Source of the DNA: a virus
IMG/VR virus record: IMGVR_UViG_3300033993_000376
Span: 1-21,876 of that record
DNA: 21,876 bases
Direction: 5' to 3' (one strand)
The notes below the pieces were generated by a model. That model ran no database searches. It had not been told where the DNA came from and worked only from the letters and a program-made list of their open reading frames with translations. Positions 7,349-14,607 of the stretch are shown one piece after another (positions within the stretch are counted from its first letter, which is position 1; the number at the start of each line of letters is the position of its first letter). The position numbers and the translations under genes are program-made.

Positions 7349-8874
7349 TACGATCCCATCCAAGAAGTTGCAACCACGCCTCTGCCATTGTACGTGCGGC
7401 GCTGCGTGGATTCACGCGCCTCACGGTGGGCTACTGGGAAGGCAAAAGTGACGCATATAGCGTCAGCCGCATCAGGCGAGGCCAATCCGCGTGCCTTCAT
7501 GTCCTTTTTCGACTCCAAAAAGATAGTCCCTTTGGAGTCGGGCTTCATCATAGGCGAAATTAAATCAGTTTTAAGAAACCTGTCAAGCGGGATTGAAGCA
7601 GTTTTCAGCCAATCCTTCATTTTGCCCCACATTTCGGCCCTTTTGTTGCCATACATGACCGGATTTGCCGATTTATTGCCAAAGTTGACACCTTTGATTT
7701 TGTACCTTTGCTCTTTCAAACGATCCACAATACCCGCCCCCAAGCCGCCTTCGTCAATCACGACCAGCGCGGGCTTGTATTCTTCAATTGCCTCAATCAC
7801 ATGACCCACAACGGTCATGGTGTCGTCGCCCCTGTGGCGCTGAATGGCAATAATGTCGCGCCCTTGGCGCACGGCAATAACTGTTGCATCCGCGCCAAAG
7901 CGGGCTGGGTCTACGCCGATCACAATTGGGGCTGACTGATCCTGATATTTAGGCCGCTTCATCGCCTCGTCCACAAGACTGGCCGAGATGAACTGATCGT
8001 CACCCTCGGACGGGAACTGACCGTACACCTCGACGTGCGCTTGGCTAGAATCAGCACCGTATTCGTCAATGATCTGCTGGTAGACCTGTTTGTCCGTGCC
8101 TTCGACCGTGCGCGCGTCCACCACCTTGGTCGTCCAGAACTCCCGCTTGCTATTAAACGCTTCGTAGAAGTACCCAGTGTTGCGCCGTGGGTTGCTAAAC
8201 GCCATCCAGAATCTGTTAGGCGTGTTCTCTGTAAAGAATCCACTGGTCACCGCCCAGATGCTGTCGTCAATACCTGACGCCTCGTCGAACACGACCAGCA
8301 CACCGTCAAAGTTGTGAACACCCGCGTAAGCGTCGGGATTCTCCGCTGACCACAGCCGTCCCTCAACGCCCCAGTAGCGCGTGCCCTTTTTAAGATCACG
8401 CTCGACCAATTCCGTGAGCCACTTGGCTGGCATCAGTCTGGTGGCCGACACCTCAAACCAGTGGCTGTTAAGCGCCATCGCCAGCCACTTGGTAATCTCG
8501 GCCCATGTGACTGACCTTAGCTGAGACTCACTGTTGGCTGAGATGATGGTCGTGGAGCCGATGCGGGTTGTGAGCATCCAGATCGTGATCCATGAGACTA
8601 GGGCCGACTTACCAATACCGCGTCCACTACTTACGGCGTGCCGTAGTGTATTGAAGTCTAGCTTGCCTTTGTTCTGGGTGATGTGGTCAGCAATATGCGT
8701 CAGCACTTCACGCTGCCATTTGCGTGGGCCTTTGAAGTGTTCTAGCGGTGTGCCAGGCTGGCCCCAAGGAAACGCAAACATTACAAACGCCAACGGGTTG
8801 TCCTTGATCGCTGGCGCCCACAATCGCGCCATGAGTTCCTGTTCGTCTTCAGCGCTGTATATGGTCGATTGCAT
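7348..8874 (-). CDS. terL: Terminase large subunit (packaging ATPase and nuclease)
   Basis: The 508-aa motor protein pumps DNA through the portal and cuts it. The ATPase domain shows a Walker A-like GRGIGKS (residues 84-90) and Walker B VVFDE (194-198), followed by the coupling-motif region SNPRRNTGYF (~227-236). The RNase H-like nuclease domain shows acidic residues in GVDPARFGAD (D322), VVIDEGG (D374) and SPDAADA (D468/D471). The conserved N-terminal FPWGQPGTPLEHFKGPRKWQ is characteristic of this phage group. The start at 8874 overlaps the small-subunit gene by 26 bp and has no clear ribosome site. ATG 8832, preceded by AGGAACTC, is an alternative that would drop 14 residues. Confidence 0.95.
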   Translation of the reverse strand: MQSTIYSAEDEQELMARLWAPAIKDNPLAFVMFAFPWGQPGTPLEHFKGPRKWQREVLTHIADHITQNKGKLDFNTLRHAVSSGRGIGKSALVSWITIWMLTTRIGSTTIISANSESQLRSVTWAEITKWLAMALNSHWFEVSATRLMPAKWLTELVERDLKKGTRYWGVEGRLWSAENPDAYAGVHNFDGVLVVFDEASGIDDSIWAVTSGFFTENTPNRFWMAFSNPRRNTGYFYEAFNSKREFWTTKVVDARTVEGTDKQVYQQIIDEYGADSSQAHVEVYGQFPSEGDDQFISASLVDEAMKRPKYQDQSAPIVIGVDPARFGADATVIAVRQGRDIIAIQRHRGDDTMTVVGHVIEAIEEYKPALVVIDEGGLGAGIVDRLKEQRYKIKGVNFGNKSANPVMYGNKRAEMWGKMKDWLKTASIPLDRFLKTDLISPMMKPDSKGTIFLESKKDMKARGLASPDAADAICVTFAFPVAHREARESTQRRTYNGRGVVATSWMGS

Positions 8875-9286
8875 GGATTGTTGGCTCGATTATTGTTGCG
8901 TCTTCGACTGTGAGCGCTCGCTTGGTTGCCTCGGCCAGCGCGCCAGTGATGGAGATGCGCTGGTCGACCTCGACCGAGATAGCTTGCTTGGCCACCCAGC
9001 CGTGTTGATGTCTGAGGATTTCTAACGCCGACTTAGCGTCGCCCTGCAAGGCGGCAGACCGGAGGACGTTGGCCATCTCTATCTCAGCGTCTGCCTTGCC
9101 CTTTTGCGCGGCAAGTTCCACCACGGGGTCAAGTTGCGTGAGTTGTCTGTATTCAATAGGCAGCATGCCTGCGGCTAACGCCAGTGCGTCGCCTTTGAGG
9201 CCCAGCTTGGCCGCGTCATATATCGCCTTCAAGCGCGACTCGGTTGCTTCGACCTTGCGCGGTGTAAATGGAATCGAATGGAACAT
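8849..9286 (-). CDS. terS: Terminase small subunit
   Basis: The 145-aa product presumably recognises the packaging site on phage DNA and loads the large subunit. Residues ~15-55 (ESRLKAIYDAAKLGLKGDAL, ALAAGMLPIEYRQL) look like a helix-turn-helix start of small terminases. The middle (KGKADAEIEMANVLRSAALQ, DAKSALEILRHQHGW) is the helical oligomerisation core often seen in this family. The assignment rests on position directly before the large subunit as well as on this pattern. GGAG lies 5 nt before ATG 9286. The repeat-rich gene-free region lies immediately upstream, which is relevant because small terminases often bind repeated DNA sites near their own gene. Confidence 0.85.
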   Translation of the reverse strand: MFHSIPFTPRKVEATESRLKAIYDAAKLGLKGDALALAAGMLPIEYRQLTQLDPVVELAAQKGKADAEIEMANVLRSAALQGDAKSALEILRHQHGWVAKQAISVEVDQRISITGALAEATKRALTVEDATIIEPTIHAIDHIQR

Positions 9287-9367: not shown

Positions 9368-9397
9368 CCCTTTGCGCTCGGCCCTACCCCCTCCCCC
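9368..9397 (-). other. Possible G-quadruplex motif on the minus strand
   Basis: The plus strand has C-runs at 9368-9370, 9382-9384, 9387-9391 and 9393-9397. The minus strand therefore has four G-runs (5, 5, 3 and 3) with loops of 1, 2 and 11 bases. The motif lies 82-111 bp upstream of the terminase small-subunit start, in what would be its leader or promoter region. The long third loop makes it a weak-to-moderate candidate. Confidence 0.4.
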
Positions 9398-9428
9398 TTC
9401 GGATCTTTTGCAGCATGCCACGCGCCCG

Positions 9429-9833
9429 TGTGGGTCATGTGGACAATGTGGACCATCAGTTTTAAGTCACATGGCCACGCAAGCCACAAGCCTGCGCGCT
9501 ACCTGGTGTGGACAATGTGGACAATCATTTTGCAATAGTCCACATGACCCACATTTTTCTTTCGCGCCAGTTCTTTCTTTTTGCGTGGGAATTCCCTGCG
9601 CGTGGATTTGTGGACAATGTGGACCATTTGGACCATCGTTTTAAATCGGCGCCGGATGAGGCGTCAACCTAGCGTTACACACACCCATACATATATCTCT
9701 ACTTCAAACTTTTATCTTTTTTTTATTATCCACATTGTCCACAACACTTCGCAGACCGCGCCGTTGCTTGGTTTGCGTGTGGACAATCGTCAACCCTCAC
9801 TAAGTCCACATTCTTATCCACGCATGGTCCACA
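9429..9833. repeat. Sixteen 9-bp iterons, consensus TGTGGACAA (complement TTGTCCACA)
   Basis: Plus-orientation copies start at 9429 (TGTGGGTCA), 9438, 9447 (ends CCA), 9507, 9516, 9609, 9618 (ends CCA), 9627 (TTTGGACCA) and 9778. Minus-orientation copies lie at 9536-9544, 9545-9553, 9726-9734 (exact TTATCCACA), 9735-9743, 9802-9810, 9814-9822 (TTATCCACG) and 9825-9833. Several are directly head-to-tail without spacer (9429-9455, 9507-9524, 9536-9553, 9609-9635, 9726-9743). Most differ from the DnaA box TTATCCACA by one or two bases. The 16-mer at 9429-9444 is repeated perfectly inverted at 9538-9553. The units are seen directly; what protein binds them is inference. Confidence 0.9.
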
Positions 9834-9864: not shown

Positions 9865-9892
9865 TTGACAAGATGTGCAGCATGCAAAGAAT
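9865..9892 (+). promoter_or_regulatory. Sigma70-like promoter for the rightward early operon
   Basis: A perfect -35 hexamer TTGACA (9865-9870) is followed after 16 bp by AAGAAT (9887-9892; 4 of 6 to TATAAT). It is correctly oriented and about 65 bp upstream of the first early gene. A better-matching hexamer TACAAT at 9898-9903 would need a 27-bp spacer, so it is less likely. A consensus -35 without phage factors fits early transcription by host RNA polymerase. Confidence 0.6.
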
Positions 9893-11598: not shown

Positions 11599-11819
11599 CC
11601 GACGTCAAACATTACGACCGCACAACGGTCACCTTTCACCGTGGCAATGCGTTCACGCCGGAAGGCGTGGATGCTGCACCCTTTGCCACATTCACCATGA
11701 ACGACTTGGTGGACCGCGACTTAATCGACGCCATCTGCGCCTTGGTGCGCGAACACACAAATAAGGCACACGCCGACTTTTGCAACATTAAATTAACAAC
11801 TGAAGATTGGGATGTATAA
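11595..11819 (+). CDS. Small early protein, 74 aa
   Basis: ATG 11595 follows AGGAG (11583-11587) after 7 nt and overlaps the preceding stop (ATGA). The product begins MTDVKHYDRTTVTFHRGNAF, then TPEGVDAAPFATFTMNDLVD, a helix (RDLIDAICALVREHTNKA) and an acidic end (TTEDWDV). No family or motif is recognised. It is predicted soluble and is part of the early small-gene operon. Confidence 0.72.
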   Translation: MTDVKHYDRTTVTFHRGNAFTPEGVDAAPFATFTMNDLVDRDLIDAICALVREHTNKAHADFCNIKLTTEDWDV

Positions 11820-11820
11820 C

Positions 11821-12018
11821 ATGATTGACTTAACAAAATTGACGCCAGACGAAGCAGAGGCCATTGCACACGCTGAGGGCTTTACGGGTATTGCTGCCAT
11901 GTTCGCACAGATTGCGGATCTGCAACACGCCGTCTATGCCCTCTTAGACGCCATCGAAGACGGCGACACAGAGAAGTTGGCCAAGGTTACATCAGACGCT
12001 AGGGAGTTACTGCCATGA
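11821..12018 (+). CDS. Small early helical protein, 65 aa
   Basis: I chose ATG 11821 (MIDLTKLTPDEAEAIAHAEG), one base after the preceding stop; ATG 11812, adding three residues and overlapping by 8 bp, is equally possible because neither has a strong ribosome site. The product is almost all helix (FTGIAAMFAQIADLQHAVYA, LLDAIEDGDTEKLAKVTSDA) and acidic. No family is recognised. Its stop overlaps the next start (ATGA at 12015-12018). Confidence 0.7.
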   Translation: MIDLTKLTPDEAEAIAHAEGFTGIAAMFAQIADLQHAVYALLDAIEDGDTEKLAKVTSDARELLP

Positions 12019-12288: not shown

Positions 12289-12314
12289 AGCCCCTAGCAA
12301 TAGGGGCTTTTTTT
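12289..12314 (+). terminator. Rho-independent terminator of the early operon
   Basis: A perfect 8-bp GC-rich stem, AGCCCCTA (12289-12296) and TAGGGGCT (12301-12308), with loop GCAA, is followed by seven T (12308-12314). It ends the rightward small-gene operon. Its T-run overlaps the stop codon of the converging primase-helicase gene (12313-12315). There is no equivalent T-run on the other strand, so it acts mainly rightward. Confidence 0.92.
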
Positions 12315-14607
12315 ATTTGACCAACCTAACAGACATTGGCGATGGCACATCTTCAACAAGGCGGCGCAGTTCAGACTTGGACACATCGACCATATCTGGC
12401 GCGCAGAAAATATGCTTTTTAGAGTCAAACTCCCGCGACTTCAATCTGCCCATGTCAACCCATCCCGCCTCTTTCAGGGCATGCAACAAGGCAGGCTGCG
12501 GAACTTTTACGCCAGACGGCGCGGCGCCCGCTAGGCGGTCACAAAGCGCATGGAAGGGAGACGCCACCACACCCTTAGAAAACTCACCCATGCGGGTACG
12601 CATTAACTCGACAAGATAACTTTCGGCCATGCTCATACCATGCTCAACCAAGTTCATCTTGAATTCGGTCAACATGGGGGCTGCACCAGGATTAAATGCG
12701 GCCACATCACGCGAAGCAAGCCAACCGCTAATGGCCGCAAAGCCTCCCGCCTTGTACCACTTCCACATCTTTTCAGCGGCCTGCGCGGTCATGCGCGGCG
12801 CGTGCGACCACACGCAAAACCAACGGCGGTCTTGCGAGTCCAGACTAATTGGCACAGGGTCATTAGAAAACGCCAACACAAACACGCGATTGGCCATCTG
12901 GTAGGGGTGTAGGCCCTTGCGGTTAACTGTCAGCATCTCAGGAGGCGCGGCGATGATGGGCTTGAGTTTGTTGGCCAAGGCCCTGCGCTCCTTGGCGTCT
13001 GGTTCTTTCAACTCGTTCAAGATCAGGATCTCAGACTCAAGGGCATATCCGAACTGCGACGACATGGTGTCGTTGTCCAGCAGGCCACGATTCTTAAGGT
13101 GTGGGCCACAGACGGCCCAGATGAACGGCGCCCACATGGTATCTTTGCCAGACCCTTGATCGCCGCCATGCAACACGGCATGGTTGATCTTGGTCTCAGG
13201 GTGCTGCACCTTAAACGCCATCACGTCAAAGATGTGTTCTAACTCGTCAGCGTTAGGCACTAGCGCCCTGCAATGCTCAAGCCAAGGGGTCACATCACCA
13301 GACCCGACCGCAGGGCGCGCATCGCGCCAACGATTGCCATACAGATCACCATCACGGGCCACAATGACCGACTCGCCTGCTGCGTATGTAATGCCGACAA
13401 GCGCCTTTGCGCCCATGGTCTGGCGGTTCTCGTCAAAACTAACAGACGCCTCGACTTTAGGGTTTTTACCATGTATGGACTTGCAGGGGATGTGACGGAA
13501 CAAGGCGTTAAAGGTCTGGCGGGAGATCTCACGGCGGTCCTGCATATCAAAGTAGGACTCGTCGTCTTGGATGTACGCAAAGCGCTCATACCATTGCGAC
13601 TTCTCGACACGGCCCAGCTCCTTGCGCTCGACCTCGGCGATCACGGCTGCGGCGTCATCTGTGAACATATCGGAGGGCGTCAACTTGGACAACGCCTGAT
13701 CCATGGCCATGGTCAGCAGTTCTTCACGAAGTCCAGGCGCATGCTTGGGGCCGCCATTGTCTGACACCCACTTAAGGAACGCGCTAGAGTCGACTTCAAG
13801 GCAATGACTATGCAGACAGCAATACGCACGATTGGCGGGCATGTAACGGCCTTCTGGGTTGCCGTCGGTATGCTCGGCTGAGTTAGGGCAGATCACGCCT
13901 GCCCAGCCCTCAGCGTTGGGTTTAGACAACAGCAGACCCTGACCCGACAACCACGCCATCACATCGTCTGCGCCGTCGTCTGTTAATCGAATGGGCTTAA
14001 CACCTACTGAGTCAGCAGGCGCGGGAACAACGTCAAGCGCTGCACAGATCTGCTCAAGCGTAAATTCGCGCTCTGGGTGAAACTCGACCAACTTAGATGC
14101 AAAGTTGTTGCGGTCTGGTTTCAAGTTGATCGAACCAGGCAGGCGGAAGTTACGCACGGCATTGATCGCGCCAGAGTCGGTGTAGCCTGCATCGGCAATG
14201 GCTTTGATGGCCGCGCTGAAATCCATCTTTGTAGGTTGTTCTGAGAAGGCGTAGCCCCATTGGAACGAACCCTCTGAGGTTTCCATCTTCCAAGTCGGCT
14301 CAAGAGGCGGGGTCTTGGCCTTTGTGCCCACATCGTCAAGCACCATCACAAGCACATACTCGCAGTAAGCCGCGCCTGCTGACACATGACCATCCTTGAA
14401 ACGGTCAACGATAAACGACGCGGTGTTGCCGTAGATTGCCCAGTCTTTTTTAATCTTGGCGTCAGGCAACATGGCGGGCCATGTGCATTTGATCGCGCCG
14501 TCTGCATGAAACTGCAACTCACCATCCTTGAGCATAGGTTTCTGACGCACGATCAGCGCAGTCTCACCCTCTGGGGCCAAGGACACTAAAAATTCAAGAA
14601 AGTTCAT
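12313..14607 (-). CDS. Primase-helicase: AEP (RepB-like) primase fused to SF3-type helicase
   Basis: The 764-aa product probably primes and unwinds DNA at the phage fork. The N-terminal ~190 residues resemble archaeo-eukaryotic (RepB-like) primases: acidic YVLVMVLDDVGTK (D91, D92) and VRNFRLPGSINLK (151-163), a hallmark motif of that group. Residues ~240-270 have the zinc-ribbon-like arrangement C240, H246, C263/C264, H266, H268, C269. The C-terminal half is a DUF5906/SF3-like ATPase: Walker A GGDQGSGKDT (481-490), acidic Walker B region ILILNELKE (526-534), sensor-like AFSNDP (579-584) and QDRRW (592-596). It starts in an ATGA overlap with the polymerase stop, so it is coupled to it. No separate replicative helicase is seen in the window. 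Confidence 0.88.
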   Translation of the reverse strand: MNFLEFLVSLAPEGETALIVRQKPMLKDGELQFHADGAIKCTWPAMLPDAKIKKDWAIYGNTASFIVDRFKDGHVSAGAAYCEYVLVMVLDDVGTKAKTPPLEPTWKMETSEGSFQWGYAFSEQPTKMDFSAAIKAIADAGYTDSGAINAVRNFRLPGSINLKPDRNNFASKLVEFHPEREFTLEQICAALDVVPAPADSVGVKPIRLTDDGADDVMAWLSGQGLLLSKPNAEGWAGVICPNSAEHTDGNPEGRYMPANRAYCCLHSHCLEVDSSAFLKWVSDNGGPKHAPGLREELLTMAMDQALSKLTPSDMFTDDAAAVIAEVERKELGRVEKSQWYERFAYIQDDESYFDMQDRREISRQTFNALFRHIPCKSIHGKNPKVEASVSFDENRQTMGAKALVGITYAAGESVIVARDGDLYGNRWRDARPAVGSGDVTPWLEHCRALVPNADELEHIFDVMAFKVQHPETKINHAVLHGGDQGSGKDTMWAPFIWAVCGPHLKNRGLLDNDTMSSQFGYALESEILILNELKEPDAKERRALANKLKPIIAAPPEMLTVNRKGLHPYQMANRVFVLAFSNDPVPISLDSQDRRWFCVWSHAPRMTAQAAEKMWKWYKAGGFAAISGWLASRDVAAFNPGAAPMLTEFKMNLVEHGMSMAESYLVELMRTRMGEFSKGVVASPFHALCDRLAGAAPSGVKVPQPALLHALKEAGWVDMGRLKSREFDSKKHIFCAPDMVDVSKSELRRLVEDVPSPMSVRLVK

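Follow-up and report, generated by a model that had tools for sequence, protein, structure and literature searches.

The window analysed here is the whole 21.9-kb virus fragment (21,876 nucleotides), and its relatives reach 36-39 kb. Family searches identified a terminase large subunit (TerL), a DUF5906 primase-helicase and a family-A polymerase, together with a DUF2800 exonuclease, an endonuclease-family protein, a partial C5 methylase-like protein and an SNF2-type helicase. The small gene at 8849-9286 (- strand) had no family match in these searches and is named terS by its position beside terL. Between the divergent late and early operons lies an array of short repeats (9429-9833, unstranded), the first copy of which is 143 bp from the start of terS, a distance already given correctly in the first-pass annotation. 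On the early side of the array a motif scan found one sigma-70-like promoter reading into the early genes (9865-9892, + strand; 0.9 expected by chance), and the primase-helicase, which is of the PrimPol type by family, sequence and fold matches, is encoded at 12313-14607 (- strand).

Some other features of the window were also observed. A GGCCCTACCCCCTCCCCC element at 9380-9402, between the array and terS, is a candidate late promoter, regulatory or packaging element, and GGCCCTACCC is present upstream of terS in 70 of 100 loci. The 200-aa protein encoded at 19352-19954 matches C5 cytosine methylases over their first part alone (residues 6-85), and it may be a truncated or divergent MTase. A DNA-level search of phage records gave no near match and one marginal distant match.

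When the window was scanned for TGTGGAYMA with at most two mismatches, sixteen elements were found in the array, starting at 9429, 9438, 9447, 9507, 9516, 9536, 9545, 9609, 9618, 9627, 9726, 9735, 9778, 9802, 9814 and 9825. This bears out the sixteen 9-mers noticed earlier, and their number is far above chance. Strong matches ([TC]GTGGA[CT][ACT]A) occur twelve times in the 405-bp array and once in the other 21.5 kb of the window, and TGTGGACAA with at most one mismatch was found 19 times in the window, where shuffled sequences gave 6.6 on average and none of 100 reached 19. Many of the elements are placed head-to-tail with a period of 9 bp. Three such iterons (9609-9635, + strand) form a left arm and two, TTATCCACA TTGTCCACA (9726-9743, - strand), form a right arm, and both arms face a tract with an AT-rich right half (9640-9725, unstranded) that we propose, from the comparison of convergent iterons described below, as the DNA unwinding element. 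The outer left part holds two tandem iteron pairs (9438-9455 and 9507-9524, both on the + strand), followed by an inverted pair, TGTGGACTA and TGTGGGTCA (9536-9553, - strand), which is an inverted copy of 9429-9447. The outer right iterons (9778-9833) start at 9778 on the + strand and at 9802, 9814 and 9825 on the - strand. The array is in this respect a cluster of short direct repeats beside an AT-rich tract, as is found in iteron origins of the SaPI/P4 type.

The first-pass annotation described these elements as DnaA-box-like, belonging either to a phage origin that borrows host DnaA or to a decoy that titrates it. An exact DnaA box, TTATCCACA, is indeed present at 9726-9734 and abutted by the AT-rich tract, TTATCCACG is found at 9814-9822, and most of the remaining elements are near the box in sequence. 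This does not hold for the elements at 9429-9437 and 9545-9553, which are TGTGGGTCA/TGACCCACA, the iteron word of another class of relatives (TGACCCAC); within a GTCCACA array they may be remnants of an earlier specificity, or sites of lower affinity.

Searching IMG/VR with the TerL and primase sequences recovered about 155 loci, and further ones came from a scan for the repeats. Only part of the relatives found with TerL keep TGTGGACAA between terS and the early genes, so the 9-mers of the window are conserved in some related phages and replaced in others. The relatives without it have, at this intergenic position, an array built in the same way: iterons of 9 bp lie head-to-tail and point towards an AT-rich tract from either side, but the repeated word is a different one. 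For instance, TGACCCAAA is the word in L013, L021 and L033, TGACTCAC in L008 and L010, and TGACCCACA in L014, and the TerL of these phages is 98-99% (L008, L010, L013 and L014), 96% (L021) or 93% (L033) identical to that of the window. Across relatives with differing words (TGACCCAAA, TGACTCAC, TGACCCAC) TerL is 92-99% identical. The words seen over 216 loci include TGTCCACA, TGACCCAA, TGACTCAC, TGACCCAC, GCCAACA, AGCCCA, TGCCTACA, TGTCCATA and GTTTACAT. The architecture is conserved, as the iterons nearest the AT tract face inward from both sides in 37 of 41 GTCCACA and 39 of 41 TGACCCA loci (76/82 together). These inward-facing iterons are mostly 90-120 bp apart, the AT tract has a median AT fraction of 0.80 over 50 bp, and 9-bp tandem spacing was counted in 140 cases in the GTCCACA class and 180 in the TGACCCA class.

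Classification by the top 8-mer mislabelled loci with other repeats (CTAACTT palindromes in L041, L048, L051, L055 and L183; a GGCA microsatellite in L160) and was replaced by de novo motif finding. Because other repeats also confused this step, eight labels (L008, L014, L041, L048, L051, L055, L160 and L183) were set by hand after the protein residues discussed below had been seen, that of L183 without its array being printed. A second, palindromic repeat family (AGTTAGTGGYCACTAACTT-like) lies on the terS side of the array in L041, L048, L051, L055, L074 and L183; it does not track iteron class, and these palindromes are possibly the operators of a regulator. Homologues also lie on MAG contigs, among them contigs of Rhodoferax and other betaproteobacteria, a host link that possibly reflects binning only.

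The comparison with relatives bears directly on the role of DnaA. Of the 41 arrays of the same class 14 hold the exact box and 27 lack it, and it is present in 0 of 59 arrays of other classes. TTWTNCACA is not conserved in relatives, TGACCCAAA and GCCAACA are not DnaA boxes, and L063 has two TGTGGACAA but no TGTGGATAA at the place matching the box at 9726. Head-to-tail packing at exactly 9 bp is also unlike bacterial oriC, and the ORFs of the window that were scanned include no DnaA-like gene. In favour of DnaA speak the two words at 9726 and 9814, the 14 same-class arrays with an exact box, and a stand-alone DnaA domain-IV protein (Bac_DnaA_C, E 1e-17) in MW202483, which is a distant relative. 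The gene for this protein lies at 31423-31719 of that record (L004, MW202483.1), yet the word of the L004 array is GTTTACAT. Since TTGTCCACA, the word of one iteron class, is one base from TTATCCACA, we regard the likeness to DnaA boxes as a by-product. An origin recruiting host DnaA, or a decoy for DnaA titration, is therefore highly unlikely; of the earlier proposal the origin is well supported and the borrowing of DnaA is not, as relatives carry non-DnaA words in the same place and architecture. The case also warns against reading DnaA-box-like words in phages without a comparison of relatives.

The word of the array follows the predicted C-terminal winged helix of the primase-helicase, and not TerS, TerL, portal or polymerase. 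In an alignment of 100 distinct primase-helicases, columns 719, 722, 723, 725, 728 and 733 fully separate GTCCACA from TGACCCAA primases, the two main classes. Residues 723/725/728 are KRD in 40 of 41 GTCCACA phages and KRE in one, A(G/S/A)(Q/P) in all 41 TGACCCA phages, and KRT in 9/9 TGACYCAC (TGACTCAC/TGACCCAC) phages. K723 and R725 are kept even in GTCCACA phages whose primases are only 65-70% identical to that of the window. On trees of the same 92 loci the array label changed 38 times for TerL and 38 times for TerS, as compared to 22, 16 and 14 times for primase segments 1-430, 431-690 and 691-764, where the minimum is 12. Among the 51 loci with a polymerase, TerL, TerS and polA required 22, 21 and 20 changes (shuffles about 25), and the primase C-terminus required 11 against a possible minimum of 10; for the portal, in a 42-locus set, 22 changes were counted against 22.8 after shuffling. 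In independent pairs K723 went with class in 8/8 on the TerL tree (p=0.008), 6/6 on the TerS tree and 8/8 on the primase N-terminal tree. The array and the primase-helicase thus covary as a cognate initiator/iteron pair, as in iteron origins of the SaPI/P4 type.

These counts also bear on a packaging (pac) site bound by TerS, which had been raised as a main rival and for which the 143-bp distance to terS speaks. The word is tracked by neither TerS nor TerL, with 38 changes on each tree against 14 for the primase C-terminus and values near the shuffled ones in the 51-locus set, and the word differs even between phages whose TerL is 98-99% identical. As the class of the array changes while TerS and TerL stay near-identical, a pac site is not supported and we consider it very unlikely. 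Simple hitch-hiking is likewise a poor explanation for the covariation, because the primase C-terminus, 2.5 kb from the array, tracks the word while terS at 143 bp does not, and because most of the intervening genes are missing in the majority of loci. Joint inheritance or transfer of the array and the C-terminus could nevertheless be a partial source of it. One of these genes, an early gene of 68 aa at 11812-12018, is confined to the GTCCACA class, but as just 18 of those 41 phages have it, it was rejected as a general determinant of the word.

The position between divergent late and early operons, next to the sigma-70-like promoter at 9865, would also suit an operator array for a phage repressor or an early/late switch protein, without any origin role, and operators likewise diversify quickly. 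However, the protein that covaries with the array is a replicative primase-helicase and not a repressor, no DNA-binding regulator was found among the early ORFs scanned, and most genes from array to primase are not common to the class, and we therefore find this alternative very unlikely. A dual use is possible, where the array is an origin and the bound helicase also controls the promoter.

An AlphaFold2 model of the whole primase-helicase (mean pLDDT 72) matched the C-terminal region of NrS-1 polymerase first in a fold search (6k9c, E 7e-13), as well as SaPI5 PriRep1 (7ola, 7pds) and S-2L PrimPol (6zp9), and NrS-1 was also matched in a sequence search (E 2.6e-11). By homology and fold, an AEP primase and an SF3-type helicase are present in one protein, as in SaPI/P4-type systems. 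The C-terminal 124 residues, modelled with 58 homologues, gave a mean pLDDT of 84.6 and mostly 88-97 over the domain at residues 660-752 (12352-12630, - strand). Its topology, helix-strand-helix-helix-strand-wing-strand-helix, is predicted with high confidence to be that of a winged helix, and we propose it as the origin-binding domain. With predicted strands at 717-722 and 731-735, residues 723-730 (12418-12441, - strand), which include K723, R725 and D728 and covary with the iteron word, make up the predicted wing. A domain-only search of PDB folds gave no significant match, the non-significant ones including several winged-helix proteins, and the P4 origin-binding domain was not recovered by the sequence search or by the domain-only fold search. 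Where the first-pass annotation saw no dedicated initiator, only a primase-helicase, this protein, with a C-terminal wing that covaries with the repeat, is the best initiator candidate.

Two further scans and a genome scan added 99 new distinct arrays, and their class was predicted from residues 723/725/728 by a pre-fixed rule before the DNA was read. The rule gave a prediction for 80 loci and named the word correctly in 61 of them (permutation mean 22.9, highest value 40 in 10,000), a comparison that gives no independent p value since the new loci are related to each other. The prediction was right for 20 of 22 GTCCACA, 20 of 22 TGACYCAC and 21 of 36 GCCAACA loci. The misses mostly concern phages in which the wing MGRLASREYQTKKH goes with a degenerate GACCCACA/GCCTACA mix and not, as in others, with GCCAACA; 15 of the 36 GCCAACA predictions failed. 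Evidently, residues outside the trio matter too and the wing is not the sole determinant.

Taken together, our results suggest that the array is very probably the own replication origin of this freshwater phage, with iterons bound by the predicted C-terminal winged helix of the primase-helicase, since the word and the tail residues change together and the packaging genes do not change with them. In the mechanism that we propose, this winged helix would bind the tandem 9-bp iterons flanking the AT tract, and wing residues K723, R725 and D728 would largely set which word is read. Two helicase rings may then assemble head-to-head over the inward-facing iterons and melt the AT tract, after which the same PrimPol-helicase would prime synthesis for the family-A polymerase of the phage and replication would proceed bidirectionally. 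On this view the phage has an iteron origin like those of P4 and SaPI, which its self-loading PrimPol-helicase would melt. The GC skew, proposed earlier as a check, showed no turning point at the array in the window, which is a fragment, and no clear one in the complete relative MW202483.

We give even chances to a wider reading, in which a wing-led, RFX1-like recognition code of about three residues specifies the 9-bp iteron in abundant free-living freshwater phages and the specificity is switched often, possibly as an escape from satellites or competing phages that use or attack the origin. An iteron origin with a primase-helicase is of a known kind; the new part is the rapid and readable switching of origin specificity in free-living phages, and in a limited literature search neither this phage group nor a wing-to-iteron code was found described. 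The analysis names a likely origin and initiator for a widespread, little studied phage group, and with its natural series of about ten initiator/iteron pairs, origin recognition by a replicative helicase becomes directly testable, as does the evolution of this specificity in a replicon that must survive each change.

Among known systems, SaPI Rep and Cch2 bind iterons via their C-terminal domain (PMC7581432). The phage system resembles SaPI Rep/ori (SaPI5 PriRep1, a structural match to the primase-helicase of the window) and SCCmec Cch2 with its direct repeats, where a self-loading AEP/SF3 primase-helicase or helicase places a C-terminal domain on short iterons (PMC7581432), a contact that by analogy would be made here as well. 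SaPI origins lie directly downstream of rep, whereas in this free-living, podovirus-like phage 2.5 kb separate the array, next to terS, from the primase-helicase gene, and the 9-bp iterons are arranged in many inward-facing tandem blocks. P4 gp-alpha (PMC10516667, citing Yeo 2002) is likewise a fused primase-helicase with a winged-helix origin-binding domain, in our protein a predicted one, and the P4 domain is said there to resemble RFX1, which reads the DNA major groove with its wing (PMC4333399); P4, in contrast, is a satellite. NrS-1 primase-polymerase is the closest solved homologue (6k9c), but PMC10516667 reports that it has a tail domain unlike the P4/C962R winged helix, and the NrS-1 genome contains an 8-nt recognition sequence in two copies (PMC7102993) and not an iteron array as here. 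Origin/initiator covariation and swapping under phage nuclease attack is known from the PLE satellites (PMC8263062). The RepA_N/ori of Vibrio cholerae PLE differs in that the initiator fold is unrelated and the elements are satellites, with two variants as compared to the about ten words found here.
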